Of a stretch of 64,000 bases of DNA, positions 49,064-52,683 are shown one piece after another; within the stretch, counting starts at the first letter, position 1, and the number at the start of each line of letters is the position of its first letter. The DNA is taken from contig CAKNGB010000002.1 in NCBI GenBank assembly GCA_930971385.1, forward strand, positions 1 to 64,000, read 5' to 3'. The notes beneath the pieces were generated by a model. It saw only the letters and a list, made by a program, of their open reading frames with translations, was not told where the DNA came from and did no database searches. Source of the DNA: an uncultured Clostridia bacterium (GTDB taxonomy: Bacteria; Bacillota; Clostridia; Christensenellales; UBA1242). The translations under genes and the position numbers were made by a program.

Positions 49064-49185
49064 AAAGTTGCGACAAAATCGCCAACGAAGTGCGATTTTC
49101 GATTGGTCGCATAAAAGAAAAAACAAGCGAAAAGCGATACTTTTCAAACTTGTTTGAAAATGAGCAAAAGCGCAGTTTTTTCTTA
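49064..49185 (-). repeat. tRNA-3'-linked structured repeat, copy A
   Basis: It starts directly after the CCA of tRNA-Trp on the minus strand. Read in tRNA orientation it has AAGAAAAAACTGCGCTT, a palindrome TTTTCAAAC-AA-GTTTGAAAA (49141-49160), CGCTTGTTTTTTCTTTTATG, then a large hairpin (49069-49111). In that hairpin TGCGAC and AAAATCGC pair with GCGATTTT and GTCGCA around a 6-base bulge and a 9-base loop. The same series follows tRNA-Thr at 52315. It may be a cotranscribed RNA domain, a processing or termination signal, or a mobile palindromic element. Confidence 0.75.
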
Positions 49186-49259
49186 TGGCAGGGGTGGAAG
49201 GAATCGAACCCTCCTCTGGAGTTTTGGAGACTCTCATTCTACCGATGAACTACACCCCT
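49186..49259 (-). tRNA. tRNA-Trp (anticodon CCA)
   Basis: The cloverleaf has acceptor AGGGGTG/CACCCCT (7 bp), D arm GTTC-ATCGGTA-GAAT, anticodon loop CTCCAAA (anticodon CCA), a 4-base variable loop, T arm GAGGG-TTCGATT-CCTTC, discriminator G and an encoded CCA. The first anticodon-stem pair is an A-C mismatch. It decodes UGG. Confidence 0.95.
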
Positions 49260-49279
49260 AAAAAAATGAAATCTATTGT

Positions 49280-49308
49280 ATTTTACTATTTTTTTCCTCT
49301 TTTGTCAA
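49280..49308 (-). promoter_or_regulatory. promoter of tRNA-Trp
   Basis: On the minus strand, perfect TTGACA, a 17-base spacer and TAAAAT, 20 bases before the tRNA 5' end. Confidence 0.7.
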
Positions 49309-49465
49309 TCTTTTACACCATATTTTTCATTTTAATTAAAATTTTCTTGTTTTTCATTTATTTTTTGTTGGTGATTGAATGTATAAGATAAAGAAATTAT
49401 GTTTCCGCAAATTTAGTTGACAATTTTATGTTAAAAGTTTAAAATCTAATCTTAGAGGTGAATTC

Positions 49466-50083
49466 ATGCAACAAATTGTTAGTAGTCTTTATGAAAGCAA
49501 CACTTTTATTTTAGAAAAAAACAATGAAATCCTCATTATTGATGCGGGTGCAACTGCGGATGAAGTTAAGAAATATGTGGGAGATAAAAAGGTTGTTGGC
49601 GTTTTATTGACGCACGGACACTTTGACCACGCATATTATGTTTCTGACTATATCAAAGAATTCAAAACAAAGGCGTATGCAAGCGAGTTTGCTAAGGAAT
49701 ATCTTTCCGAACACAAAAAGAATTATTCAAACGATGCTGGTTTAAATATGGACTTAAAAGACTTTAAAGATTTTGTTTTTTTAAAGGGTTCGGGAGAAAT
49801 TCAAATAGGAGATTTTATAGTGGAATATGGGCAACTTGGCGGACACAGTAAAAGTGATATGTTCTTTAAAATTGACAACTTTCTTTTCGTTGGCGATGTG
49901 ATTATCGGGCGTGGAATTGGAAGGGTTGACCTCTATGGCGGAAGCAAAGCCGAAATGCTGAAAAGTTTAAAAATTCTGGCAAACGCTCAATATGAAACCA
50001 TGTGTTGCGGTCACGGCGAAAATCGCACAAAAGGGGCGCAAGATAAGGTTATTTCCACTTACATTAAATTTTTAAGTAGATAG
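49466..50083 (+). CDS. metallo-beta-lactamase-fold hydrolase (glyoxalase II-like)
   Basis: The 205-residue protein has the metal-binding motif LLTHGHFDHAYYV and later ligands in YGQLGGHSKSDMFF, FVGDVIIGRGIG and CGHGENRTKG. Size and the GRGIGRVDLYGG segment place it among small hydroxyacylglutathione-hydrolase-like enzymes. The substrate cannot be read. It has no signal peptide and is cytosolic. AGAGGTG precedes the start. It is probably monocistronic. Confidence 0.88.
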   Translation: MQQIVSSLYESNTFILEKNNEILIIDAGATADEVKKYVGDKKVVGVLLTHGHFDHAYYVSDYIKEFKTKAYASEFAKEYLSEHKKNYSNDAGLNMDLKDFKDFVFLKGSGEIQIGDFIVEYGQLGGHSKSDMFFKIDNFLFVGDVIIGRGIGRVDLYGGSKAEMLKSLKILANAQYETMCCGHGENRTKGAQDKVISTYIKFLSR

Positions 50084-50108
50084 ATTTTAAAAAAATAAGT
50101 AAATTTGT

Positions 50109-50137
50109 TTGTAAAAAAGTGTGATTTTATTTATAAT
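50109..50137 (+). promoter_or_regulatory. promoter of the short lipoprotein gene, predicted leaderless
   Basis: TTGTAA, a 17-base spacer and TATAAT (50132-50137). Six bases precede the ATG at 50144. It is nearly identical to the promoter at 54025. Confidence 0.65.
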
Positions 50138-50143
50138 ATAAAC

Positions 50144-50422
50144 ATGAAAAAATTACTAATGATTATTTTATCATTTGTTTTTCTTGGCGGAGCGGTGACA
50201 GGCTCTGCCCTTCTTCTTTCTGGCTGTAATTACGAGCAATCAGAAAATTCGCAAGGAGATATTTTAGACGATAATCAAAATAACGATGAAGAAGATAGTT
50301 CAAACGGCGATAATGAGGATAATCCTGAAAATAATGGCGATTCTGAAGCCCAATCAACTTCTCATAATTTTTCTGTTATTGCACAGTTGGTATGCAATAA
50401 AACTTTCAAAATGCTAACATAA
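50144..50422 (+). CDS. short lipoprotein, truncated-looking paralogue of the InlB-repeat lipoprotein
   Basis: The 92-residue protein has a signal peptide and lipobox LLLSGC almost identical to those of the 988-residue lipoprotein at 54060 (FLGGAVTGSALLLSGC in both). An Asn/Asp/Glu/Ser-rich spacer of about 45 residues and a short end without repeats follow. Both genes share promoter geometry as well. It looks like the 5' end of a duplicated lipoprotein gene that lost its distal domains, or a free-standing short lipoprotein. No downstream remnants of the repeats are seen. Confidence 0.6.
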   Translation: MKKLLMIILSFVFLGGAVTGSALLLSGCNYEQSENSQGDILDDNQNNDEEDSSNGDNEDNPENNGDSEAQSTSHNFSVIAQLVCNKTFKMLT

Positions 50423-50432
50423 AATCTATAAT

Positions 50433-50461
50433 TTGACAATTTAAATTATATATGTTATAAT
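50433..50461 (+). promoter_or_regulatory. promoter of the 50481 gene
   Basis: Perfect TTGACA, a 17-base spacer and perfect TATAAT, followed by GGAGGT and the ATG. Confidence 0.7.
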
Positions 50462-50480
50462 TAAACATATGGAGGTAGAT

Positions 50481-50906
50481 ATGAATACTTTGGCAGATTT
50501 TTTGTATAGAAATTATGATAAAATTAAGTATAAAAGAATAGTTTTAACGAATGAAGTTGCCATTGCGTTTAATAATCTAGCAGAGAGTCAAAAATATGGT
50601 ATTGATAAAAAATTGGTTGTTGGCACACAACTTGGCACAAATAATGAAACGCGAACGGTGATCAGAAAATATTATCTTCCAATGGTAACGCAAGACGGAA
50701 AACTCAATAACAATTTTCATGACTATGTGGAAATTACGCACAATCAACTTGGTTTTGAAAAACGCGAAATTGAGGTGTCGTCGTTCAAAATATTCGGTTT
50801 GGAATATCCAGTTAAGGAGCAAGGCGTTTCAAAAGGAAATGCTAACGATGAAATTATTATTGATTTAGATATGATAAAAGAAAATCAAATTGTAAGAGAA
50901 AGATAA
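50481..50906 (+). CDS. hypothetical protein, 141 residues
   Basis: GGAGGTAG directly precedes ATG 50481, so the in-frame ATG at 50469 is unlikely to be the start. The protein is soluble and mixed alpha/beta, with KRIVLTNEVAIAFNNL and LVVGTQLGTNNETRTVIRKY as clear segments. It shows no known motif. Its own promoter precedes it. I cannot assign a function. Confidence 0.6.
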   Translation: MNTLADFLYRNYDKIKYKRIVLTNEVAIAFNNLAESQKYGIDKKLVVGTQLGTNNETRTVIRKYYLPMVTQDGKLNNNFHDYVEITHNQLGFEKREIEVSSFKIFGLEYPVKEQGVSKGNANDEIIIDLDMIKENQIVRER

Positions 50907-50933
50907 AAGTAGCTTTTTTTAATCAAAAATTTA

Positions 50934-51989
50934 TTATTCATTTTTGCCATAAATTTTTTTCAAAGTTTCTCTTAAATCATCACGCCATGAAAGGTAGTCG
51001 TGACCTCCAGAATAGGTGTGAAAAGATATTTTTTTATACTTAACTTTTTTCTTTAAATTTGAAATTGGCTTTTGCATAGTTTCATTTGGTTCACAGTTGC
51101 CATGTGAAATTATGATGTTTCCGTAAAGTGGTAAAGTTATGTATTGTTGAAAATTTCTTCCATAGTTTTCTTTTTCGTCAAGATAAAGGCTAGGCGACTG
51201 GCAGATTAGATATTTAAAAGGATTTTTAGAAAAGCAGGCAACATTCAGTCCGCAAAGTGCACCATATGAATTTCCCAAAAATATCATATCGTTTATATTA
51301 TATTCCTCTTTAAGTTTGTTTGAAAGAGTGTTCACAATGAATTCTGCAAAATACATATTGTAGGGCAATTCTTTGGTTCGGTCTTTTTGTAAAATTCCAA
51401 CCACAATCATATCAAGTTTTAATTCGTGCTGAATTAGGTCATCTAGGCGAAGAAATCTCATCCACAAAAAACCATCCGTGGCAATTAAACAATCATATTT
51501 CTTGTTTGGGTCGAAGTTTTTTGGCAGGGCAACAAAATATTCATAATATTTCCTTTTGTCTGCCTTAATTTTTTTTCTTATAAAGAACATTCTTGTGCGC
51601 GACATTTTTTTGAAAGGAAAAAGGTAGGAGGTTATAAGTTGAAACTTACCGCTTTTAAATTTCAAATTGTTTCGGCAAAATTTATCGTGGGTGGCGTGTT
51701 CATAAAAACTTTCGTCGTCGTCACAGTCAATTGAAAGATAGTATCCAATATTTTTTGTGTTGGGTAATAGATATCTTAAATAAAAAAATTTATCATCAAT
51801 AAGTTGAAAATCTGCTCCGTCGTTTCCGCTGGACTCTATCAATTTGATTTTTTTGCAAATGTTAGGATAAAAATGCTCCACAGTTAAAAAATGGTGATTA
51901 TTTTCCACAACAACGGAACCATTTTTTTTGAGATATTCCTCTATCTCATCCTTGTTTAGTCCTTTTAAAGTTTCAAACACGCTTTTCAT
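50934..51989 (-). CDS. esterase-family alpha/beta hydrolase (enterochelin-esterase-like)
   Basis: The 351-residue protein matches the putative esterase (PF00756-type) family. The nucleophile motif is GNSYGALCG, and the catalytic histidine is in YSGGHDYLSWRD near the C-terminus. An acidic residue for the triad probably lies in SHGNCEPNE. About 130 N-terminal residues form a separate domain, as in Fes-like enzymes. No signal peptide is visible. The ATG at 51989 lies six bases after a TATAAT and has no Shine-Dalgarno site. Substrates of this family range from siderophores to feruloylated or acetylated sugars. Confidence 0.78.
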   Translation of the reverse strand: MKSVFETLKGLNKDEIEEYLKKNGSVVVENNHHFLTVEHFYPNICKKIKLIESSGNDGADFQLIDDKFFYLRYLLPNTKNIGYYLSIDCDDDESFYEHATHDKFCRNNLKFKSGKFQLITSYLFPFKKMSRTRMFFIRKKIKADKRKYYEYFVALPKNFDPNKKYDCLIATDGFLWMRFLRLDDLIQHELKLDMIVVGILQKDRTKELPYNMYFAEFIVNTLSNKLKEEYNINDMIFLGNSYGALCGLNVACFSKNPFKYLICQSPSLYLDEKENYGRNFQQYITLPLYGNIIISHGNCEPNETMQKPISNLKKKVKYKKISFHTYSGGHDYLSWRDDLRETLKKIYGKNE

Positions 51990-51995
51990 AGAATG

Positions 51996-52024
51996 ATTAT
52001 AGCACAAAAAGAAGTAAAATCAAA
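51996..52024 (-). promoter_or_regulatory. promoter of the esterase gene, predicted leaderless
   Basis: On the minus strand TTTGAT, a 17-base spacer and TATAAT (51996-52001), with six bases before the ATG at 51989. Confidence 0.6.
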
Positions 52025-52102
52025 GAAATTTTAAATAATTTTTAATATTTTACAATAAATTTTATCAACTTCTAATTATTTTTGCGAATTTGCGAAAAAT
52101 AA

Positions 52103-52131
52103 TTGACTTTTAACTTCTAGACTGTTATAAT
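52103..52131 (+). promoter_or_regulatory. promoter of tRNA-Thr
   Basis: TTGACT, a 17-base spacer and TATAAT. The tRNA starts about 100 bases after the expected transcription start, so 5' processing is needed. Confidence 0.6.
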
Positions 52132-52238
52132 ATTCTTGCAATTTTGTTGAATGCTTAAGAAATTATAAGAAACAATAGTTGATAGTTATGGCTTTATAAT
52201 TTAACAAAACACGCAACAAAAGTCGTCATTTGGTTTGT

Positions 52239-52314
52239 GCTGATGTGGCTCAGTCGGTAGAGCGTCGCCTTGGTAAGGCGGAGGTCACGGGTCCGATTCC
52301 CGTCATCAGCTCCA
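52239..52314 (+). tRNA. tRNA-Thr (anticodon GGT)
   Basis: The cloverleaf has acceptor GCTGATG/CATCAGC, D arm with CTCAGTCGGTAGAG, anticodon loop TTGGTAA (anticodon GGT), variable loop AGGTC, T arm ACGGG-TCCGATT-CCCGT, discriminator T and encoded CCA. It decodes ACC and ACU. Confidence 0.95.
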
Positions 52315-52436
52315 AAGAAAAAACTGCGCTTATTATTCATTTTGAAAACAAGTTTCAAAATTTCATTTGATGCTTGTTTTTTCTTTTATGCGACCAAACG
52401 AAAATCGCACTTTGTTGGCGATTTTGTCGCAACTTA
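52315..52436 (+). repeat. tRNA-3'-linked structured repeat, copy B
   Basis: It starts directly after the CCA of tRNA-Thr and aligns base for base with copy A for most of 120 bases. The first palindrome is TTTTGAAA-ACAAG-TTTCAAAA (52340-52360), with a G-C pair where copy A has C-G, so pairing is preserved by a double change. The large hairpin (52389-52431) differs from copy A only in the bulge and loop. Confidence 0.75.
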
Positions 52437-52460
52437 CTATTGAAGAATGTCTTTGTGCTG

Positions 52461-52545
52461 AAACTGCGCTTTTGCTCATTTTCAAAACAAGTTTGAAAAA
52501 CTTTTCGCTTGTTTTTTCTCTTTAGCGACCAAACGCAACTCGCAT
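52461..52545 (+). repeat. tRNA-3'-linked structured repeat, partial copy C
   Basis: A third, shorter copy follows copy B after about 25 bases: AAACTGCGCTTTTGCTC, palindrome TTTTCAAAACAAGTTTGAAAA, CGCTTGTTTTTTCTC and GCGACCAAACGCAACTCGC. The large hairpin is truncated. It has no functional tRNA directly upstream. Confidence 0.65.
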
Positions 52546-52587
52546 AACAAAAAGGCTTTCGAAAATGCATTTGCATTTTTGGAAAGA

Positions 52588-52683
52588 GGAGAAAACGATT
52601 GAACGGTAAAACTTTTGTGTTGCAAAAGTTGAAGTGGAAAGAAGTTTTCGACGCAGTTGCAAGTTTAATTCCTGTCATCTCCA
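52588..52683 (+). pseudogene. degenerate tRNA-like sequence
   Basis: GGAGA at 52588 can pair with TCTCC at its end. A D-arm-like GATTGAACGGTAAAAC, an anticodon-arm-like CTTTT-GTGTTGC-AAAAG, a long variable-arm-like hairpin and a T-arm-like GCAAG-TTTAATT-CCTGT follow. Several stems contain mismatches, and the size suits neither a normal class I tRNA nor an Asn anticodon. It may be a decayed tRNA that once followed repeats B and C. Evidence is weak. Confidence 0.25.

Follow-up and report, generated by a model that had tools for sequence, protein, structure and literature searches.

A family of palindromic repeats docked on gene 3' ends in the genus Candidatus Caccovivens

A shared element behind two tRNA genes

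We analyzed the first 64,000 nucleotides of contig CAKNGB010000002.1 from an uncultured Clostridia bacterium (hereafter, the window), in which two transfer RNA (tRNA) genes are followed by copies of the same non-coding element. Both genes were called by ARAGORN and Rfam. The tRNA-Trp gene (CCA anticodon) occupies 49186..49259 on the minus strand, and its 3' end adjoins copy A (49065..49184, minus strand); the tRNA-Thr gene (GGT anticodon) occupies 52239..52314 on the plus strand, and its 3' end adjoins copy B (52315..52435, plus strand). Copies A and B are full elements and scored 134 and 141 bits, respectively, with R1, the covariance model that we built for the element and used for copy searches (cmsearch). 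An earlier note on this DNA had described about 120 shared bases that start exactly at both tRNA 3' ends. The shared sequence is real: BLAST with a 122-base query from the Trp side gave 88% identity over 121 bases between copies A and B (E = 2e-35). The exact start holds for copy B, which begins 0 nt past the CCA, and is off by one for copy A, which begins 1 nt past it (CCA-T-AAGAAAAAAC).

The element is ~120–170 nt long and folds into a ~10 bp stem (P1) that surrounds one hairpin (P2); beyond P1 lies another hairpin (P4), whose asymmetric bulge is conserved and in most copies reads CAAACG (CAATCG/CAAACG in the window copies). In copy A (minus strand), the P1 arms lie at 49175-49184 / 49115-49124, the P2 arms at 49152-49160 / 49141-49149, and the P4 arms at 49092-49110 / 49070-49082, with the bulge at 49100-49105. 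The corresponding arms of copy B (plus strand) are 52315-52324 / 52376-52385, 52340-52347 / 52353-52360, and 52390-52408 / 52418-52430, with the bulge CAAACG at 52395-52400. A pair that is C-G in copy A and G-C in copy B, already pointed out in the earlier note, is located in the inner palindrome P2. The two full copies had minimum free energy z-scores of -3.4 and -4.5 against dinucleotide shuffles, and in an Rfam search of the window and its neighbours the repeat matched no family at the gathering score.

A partial third copy had also been proposed at 52461. It is present, with 85% identity between 52461-52544 (plus strand) and the Trp-side sequence (BLAST), but it is better described as a tandem unit (copy C; 52455..52578 by cmsearch, plus strand, 68.6 bits), which starts at AAACTGC (52461), has no left P1 arm, and has P4 cut short after 52543. 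Fifteen other tandem copies show the same pattern: they start with AAACTGC and keep the right P1 arm. Across the family, pairing of the outer P1 stem reaches 96% in copies at RNA ends and 94% in those at stop codons but drops to 35% in tandem copies; for P2 and P4 it is 93–100% in every placement class. The left arm thus lies outside the duplicated unit, and since tandem units have a right P1 arm but no left one, AAACTGC appears to be where the mobile unit starts. The left P1 arm would then be either derived from the site or acquired or corrected there.

The element is short, non-coding, multicopy, and present or absent at orthologous sites, as are miniature inverted-repeat transposable elements. 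It has no terminal inverted repeats at both ends; instead, P1 joins the left end to an internal segment, and P4 and the tail lie outside P1. The feet of the P1 stem vary (AAGAAA, GAGAAA, AGGCG, TGGCG) with no constant tag, and one subgroup in genome G030 starts with CGTCG. In genome G086, three loci (L144, L145, and L147) keep P1 and P2 but have P4 replaced by another shared sequence (ACTTGGGACAGACACCAAAGT...), as modular palindrome mosaics.

Distribution and placement

The genome of the window (1.05 Mb, 13 contigs) contains further copies by BLAST, and the covariance-model search that the earlier note had proposed returned 16. The host genes there are tRNA-Trp, Thr, Pro, Arg, and a degenerate tRNA-Gly; further copies stand behind a second tRNA-Met 3' end and a duplicated 5S rRNA 3' end, one lies within a tRNA-Ser copy, and others are in tandem behind such copies. 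At two sites the match is little beyond P4. Most tRNAs of this genome have no element and are followed by ordinary hairpins. The genome belongs to the genus Candidatus Caccovivens (GTDB genus UBA11517; family UBA1242, order Christensenellales; PMC8035907), a group of uncultured gut bacteria in which 69 of the 101 genomes searched carry the element, with up to 30 copies per genome. Locus L162 of Ca. C. faecavium and the genus genome G121 are among the carriers. By contrast, none of three genomes from other genera of the family had it, and in a 200-genome sample of the order the matches were confined to members of the genus, except for one weak match. The repeats form one family that is restricted to this genus, with next to no copies in the rest of the order. 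When 84,980 species genomes were scanned with a pattern, the matches listed were uncultured Clostridia/Firmicutes-type metagenome-assembled genomes (MAGs), including Caccovivens, and one named isolate, Acidaminococcus. We discarded the latter (L222), a lone terminator-like match of which ~1 is expected by chance on our own estimate. The core pattern had no match in the phage genomes of IMG/VR.

To describe placement, 76 copies from four genomes were sorted by the feature at their left end, with part of the copy set collected by sequence pattern and classes assigned by simple rules (tRNA and transfer-messenger RNA (tmRNA) class, flush at 0–6 nt from the 3' end; stop-codon class, an open reading frame (ORF) of at least 100 codons). 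Twenty-three copies stand at tRNA/tmRNA 3' ends, against 5 of 2705 random positions in the same loci, and 11 stand at stop codons, against 27 of 2705; 14 more are in tandem behind another copy. The tRNA link, which the earlier note had made refutable by a lack of preference for tRNA 3' ends, is far above chance. Of the 126 copies in a larger set, 56 are at an RNA 3' end, assigned by a CCA rule that may have let in a few false cases, and 16 are at a stop codon.

The element thus docks by its left end on the 3' ends of tRNAs, tmRNA, a duplicated 5S gene, and protein-coding genes. The tRNA targets are Thr, Trp, Leu, Lys, Val, Glu, Gly, Met, Arg, Gln, Pro, and Ser; at the tmRNA target (L114), the gene spans 308-699 and the copy starts at 703; the duplicated 5S 3' end is at L275. 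The stop-codon hosts, read from their translated ends, are presumably rpsL, rplA, polA, lysS, bipA, a spoIVB-like peptidase, dnaK, and acpS. In more than 20 copies the stop codon ends 0–3 nt inside the element, so that the two share it as T/AG, TA/A, TA/G, or TAA/ (slash, start of the element). The orientation is always gene then element, and we saw no reversed flush copy. Since unrelated tRNAs and ORFs carry the element, simple duplication of a tRNA gene is not the explanation, as had been argued before.

A terminator role is suggested at the RNA genes. A run of at least five T in the right arm (a U-run in RNA) is present in 50 of the 56 copies at RNA ends and in 4 of the 16 at stop codons, and behind tRNAs the left P1 arm is A-rich and the right arm U-rich. 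This arrangement, a hairpin and a U-run behind RNA genes, is that of an intrinsic terminator, and by eye many element-free tRNAs of the window's genome have a hairpin and a T-run right behind the CCA. On the strength of these U-runs, the element would very likely replace the intrinsic terminator where it is placed behind a tRNA. At two loci (L154, G065:C4; L336, G113:C12), the element comes directly after TGGTACCACC, which resembles the antiterminator motif of a T-box, as though the element stood in for the terminator of the riboswitch; neither locus has a T-box match in Rfam at the gathering score.

Duplicated gene ends and other repeats occur near several copies. At L275 (G000:C6, ~71.9-72.4 kb), a second 5S rRNA 3' end (AAGAACACTGCTGGTTAG) lies behind the 5S gene, flush with the element, and between the gene and this second end the 5S 3' region recurs in inverted form (CATTTTCCCGAGCCGTCGGCCCG). 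Duplicated tRNA 3' halves are found beside an intact tRNA at L282 (G000:C1 ~262.1-262.4 kb), L131, and L120, and in these tRNA copies the anticodon or T loop is broken by a GC-rich hairpin module of 80–100 nt (for example, CCCCTACGGGCGGAGAG...AACGCGTCGCCCC, which in a tRNA-Leu copy follows the TAA anticodon), which looks like a second repeat family. At L278 (G000:C1:21713-22060), L060, and L054, modules of 110–220 nt between an intact tRNA and the element end in a repeated tRNA 3' end, and an inverted copy of the tRNA T arm (e.g. AAGGATTTGAACCTACGG) lies next to tRNA-Met and also, on the downstream side of the element, next to tRNA-Gln. At L277 (G000:C2:66.5-66.9 kb), a partial tRNA-Ser copy stands immediately upstream of the intact tRNA-Ser and contains an element in its D-loop region. 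Tandem pairs of tRNA-like genes at G000:C13:2939-3117 and G065:C8:18459-18646 scored 37–43 bits and are possibly odd or decaying tRNAs. In the window itself, 52587..52683 (plus strand; GGAGA...ATCTCCA) may be a degenerate tRNA-like remnant or another module; by eye its ending looks like a tRNA-Thr 3' end, while ARAGORN made no call and Rfam gave nothing at the gathering score.

dnaK sites and the pairing of the arms

A genus-wide comparison of dnaK provided filled and empty sites. The element follows dnaK in G086, G035, G019, G106, and G108. In G064 and G002, dnaK is followed by a short element-free spacer and then the next gene, and many other genomes are also element-free at this position. 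The left P1 arm begins inside the dnaK stop codon in G106 and G108, and in G086, G035, and G019 it includes the last dnaK codons and the stop. With the endings EVTVE, EVTIE, and DVTIE, the dnaK C-termini at element sites match in type those of element-free relatives, hence a left arm that includes the last codons is host sequence. Nevertheless, the right arm of the element matches it: the codons TTGAATAAAC face GTTTATTCAA with 10 of 10 pairs, ATCGAATAAC face GTTATTCGAT with 10 of 10, and TGGAGTAAAC face GTTTCCTCCA with 9 of 10 and one mismatch. The G086 dnaK copy is nearer to other G086 copies than to the other dnaK copies, which favours separate insertions over a single ancestral one. We also considered that P1 derives from a pre-existing host terminator; this finds no support, since the majority of dnaK ends that lack the element show no hairpin at the stop codon. 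The dnaK ends of G066 and G107 (L299 and L300) have other, unrelated hairpins flush at the stop codon (CTTTTCTATGTTAGAAAAG; GGCTGGGGAGGCACC...), which suggests further repeat families with the same docking habit.

Covariation is strong throughout the element. In an alignment of the 126 copies, produced by fitting to the model and with some loci chosen beforehand by a sequence pattern, 29 of 32 pairs showed changes on both sides, with 769 such cells against 177 in shuffles, and 96% of pair cells could pair, far above slid or shuffled controls. The mismatch types are unusual for an RNA. The element has 44 G-U and 27 A-C cells (G-U ~1.2%), and P1 at RNA ends has 3 G-U and 5 A-C among 553; by contrast, the acceptor and T stems of 129 tRNAs from the same loci gave 90 G-U and 8 A-C. 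G-U is thus about as frequent as A-C, and a bias of the alignment would act in the opposite direction, as a covariance model should prefer G-U to A-C. Since A-C on one strand is G-U on the other, the near-equal counts show little sign of a functional RNA strand.

Template switching during replication yields changes on both sides of a stem without intermediates, and whether perfect hairpins arise by RNA selection or by template switching is debated for RNA genes generally (PMC8794818). The Watson-Crick double switches seen here are explained no worse by DNA hairpins or by template switching in replication than by RNA selection. Therefore, the earlier proposal that the covariation marks selection on RNA structure is doubtful, and strong covariation alone is no proof of a functional RNA. 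Judging from both-side changes with almost no wobble intermediates, complementarity is likely, though not proven, to be kept up at the DNA level.

Interpretation and known relatives

We favour a family of small mobile palindromic repeats that dock on gene 3' ends, and put the probability of this reading at roughly 0.62. An element would dock with its left end flush on a gene 3' end, always in the orientation of the gene; its left arm at the gene end would be either element sequence or the last bases of the host, and the right arm would be complementary. This complementarity is likely created and kept in the DNA itself, through template switching or repair templated by the hairpin. Copies would be mobile in trans, and a copy behind a tRNA would take over the role of the intrinsic terminator. 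Among the three options of the earlier note, a palindromic mobile element aimed at the 3' ends of tRNAs came closest, although it was too narrow, as tmRNA, duplicated 5S ends, and stop codons are targets as well.

Several observations weigh against this reading. No feature of the tRNA/tmRNA, stop-codon, or tandem classes was found at 28 of the 76 sorted copies, several of which adjoin other repeats. Ordinary transposition does not account for the exact flushness. Neither a right-end target rule nor a target-site duplication was established, and at the dnaK sites, where the filled and empty sites compared belong to different species, no target-site duplication was seen. All compared genomes are MAGs, and the fitting and preselection behind the covariation alignment count here as well. 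A simple terminator scan flagged neither copy A nor copy B, whose hairpin has long internal loops. Lastly, the search for a helper, which covered three protein families, left no candidate standing. A Y1 (RAYT) transposase was found in 7 of 61 genus genomes and was rejected because it is absent from G030, which has 30 copies; a resident reverse transcriptase was rejected because the copy-rich G000, G030, G065, and G086 have no RVT_1 protein; and tyrosine recombinases (PF00589) matched in 12 of 12 genomes tested, copy-rich and copy-poor alike, with no link to copy number.

Other explanations were considered. A domain of structured RNA, transcribed together with tRNAs and mRNAs and conserved for processing, stability, or regulation, would account for the very strong covariation in all four helices, for the shared orientation with the upstream gene, and for the low folding energy. 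We consider it unlikely, given a G-U share barely above that of A-C even in P1 at RNA ends, the ordinary hairpins behind most tRNAs of the window's genome, and the lack of an Rfam match. Slightly less likely still is insertion at the RNA level, in which the element is joined to the 3' end of an RNA (mature tRNA, tmRNA, 5S, or an mRNA cleaved at its stop codon), for instance when a reverse transcriptase jumps between templates, and the resulting chimera enters the locus by recombination. Such a junction would explain exact docking at true RNA 3' ends and at stop-codon positions +1 to +3 in a single orientation, and the tandem copies and the nearby duplications of gene 3' ends are consistent with it. 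However, the copy-rich genomes without RVT_1 argue against it, we saw no direct sign of an RNA intermediate, and repetitive extragenic palindromic (REP) elements elsewhere supply stop codons with no such mechanism (PMC3733652). We give the same low standing to a retro-chimeric insertion directed by RNA 3' ends, akin to short interspersed nuclear elements, in which the outer stem is copied from the last bases of the host gene on arrival.

Integron-type or other site-specific integrase modules, in which single-stranded hairpins of the attC kind recombine at the 3' ends of genes, are very improbable. The DNA hairpin with AAC/GTT at its stem, the tandem arrays of 140–200 nt units, the duplicated gene 3' ends beside some copies, and docking at gene 3' ends, as integrases do, would all suit them. 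The attC R-box consensus is RYYYAAC ... GTTRRRY, but the element has AAAAAAC/GTTTTTT and CGAAAAC/GTTTTCG instead; moreover, no cassette genes were seen, tyrosine recombinases did not track copy number (as judged with the general PF00589 model), and a single integrase cannot account for dozens of unrelated targets. Least probable of all is that these are ordinary intrinsic tRNA terminators, alike only because they are A/T-rich hairpins. The A-rich left and U-rich right arms at RNA genes and the terminator-like hairpins behind the CCA of other tRNAs point that way, and the earlier suggestion of a common terminator type survives as a plausible co-opted, secondary role. As a whole explanation it is refuted by 88% identity over 120 bases, P4 and loops included, by copies elsewhere, in tandem, and at stop codons with no U-run, and by presence and absence at the same dnaK end.

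The favoured family of mobile repeats has relatives in kind, as small palindromic repeats are known in many bacteria. Like the element, REP (GTAG/CGTC) palindromes are short and dispersed, with many copies per genome and in clusters; they lie mostly <20 bp from ORF 3' ends, and GTAG REPs often provide a TAG stop codon (PMC3733652). The present element differs in its length of 120–170 nt and its two hairpins, in having no GTAG/CGTC tag at the stem foot, in the absence of a Y1 transposase from a copy-rich genome, and in docking on tRNA, tmRNA, and 5S ends with an arm complementary to host codons. SPRITE, with BOX and RUP of pneumococcus, is likewise a small repeat, described as terminator-like, with AAAA...TTTT ends, near the 3' termini of coding sequences; the portion of the description at hand reports no exact docking at a CCA or stop codon (PMC3049150), and host and structure differ, SPRITE being a single duplex with a U-rich tract. 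Rickettsia palindromic elements (RPE) are selfish palindromic repeats of ~150 bp in a small genome (PMC10969869); they insert inside ORFs as in-frame fusions, whereas the element leaves genes with native ends. The mitochondrial repetitive or double hairpin elements, mobile and both single and tandem, occupy intergenic and rRNA sites of organelles with no gene 3' end rule (PMC2800124). Intrinsic (Rho-independent) terminators share the hairpin and U-run right behind RNA genes; in contrast to them, the element is a shared sequence family, probably mobile, with a second hairpin, and it stands at stop codons with no U-run. For repeats downstream of tRNAs, our literature search yielded nothing beyond a short motif in Methanopyrus (PMC5217627).

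Routine replacement of tRNA terminators by a mobile repeat, if it occurs, would be a clear case of selfish DNA capturing gene ends. The dnaK sites, with an arm that tracks the codons of each species, allow the question of how perfect hairpins arise and persist to be asked directly. Compared with REP, SPRITE, RPE, and the mitochondrial hairpins, none of which docks in this way in the descriptions as far as available, the element stands apart in docking to the nucleotide on tRNA, tmRNA, and 5S ends and on stop codons.

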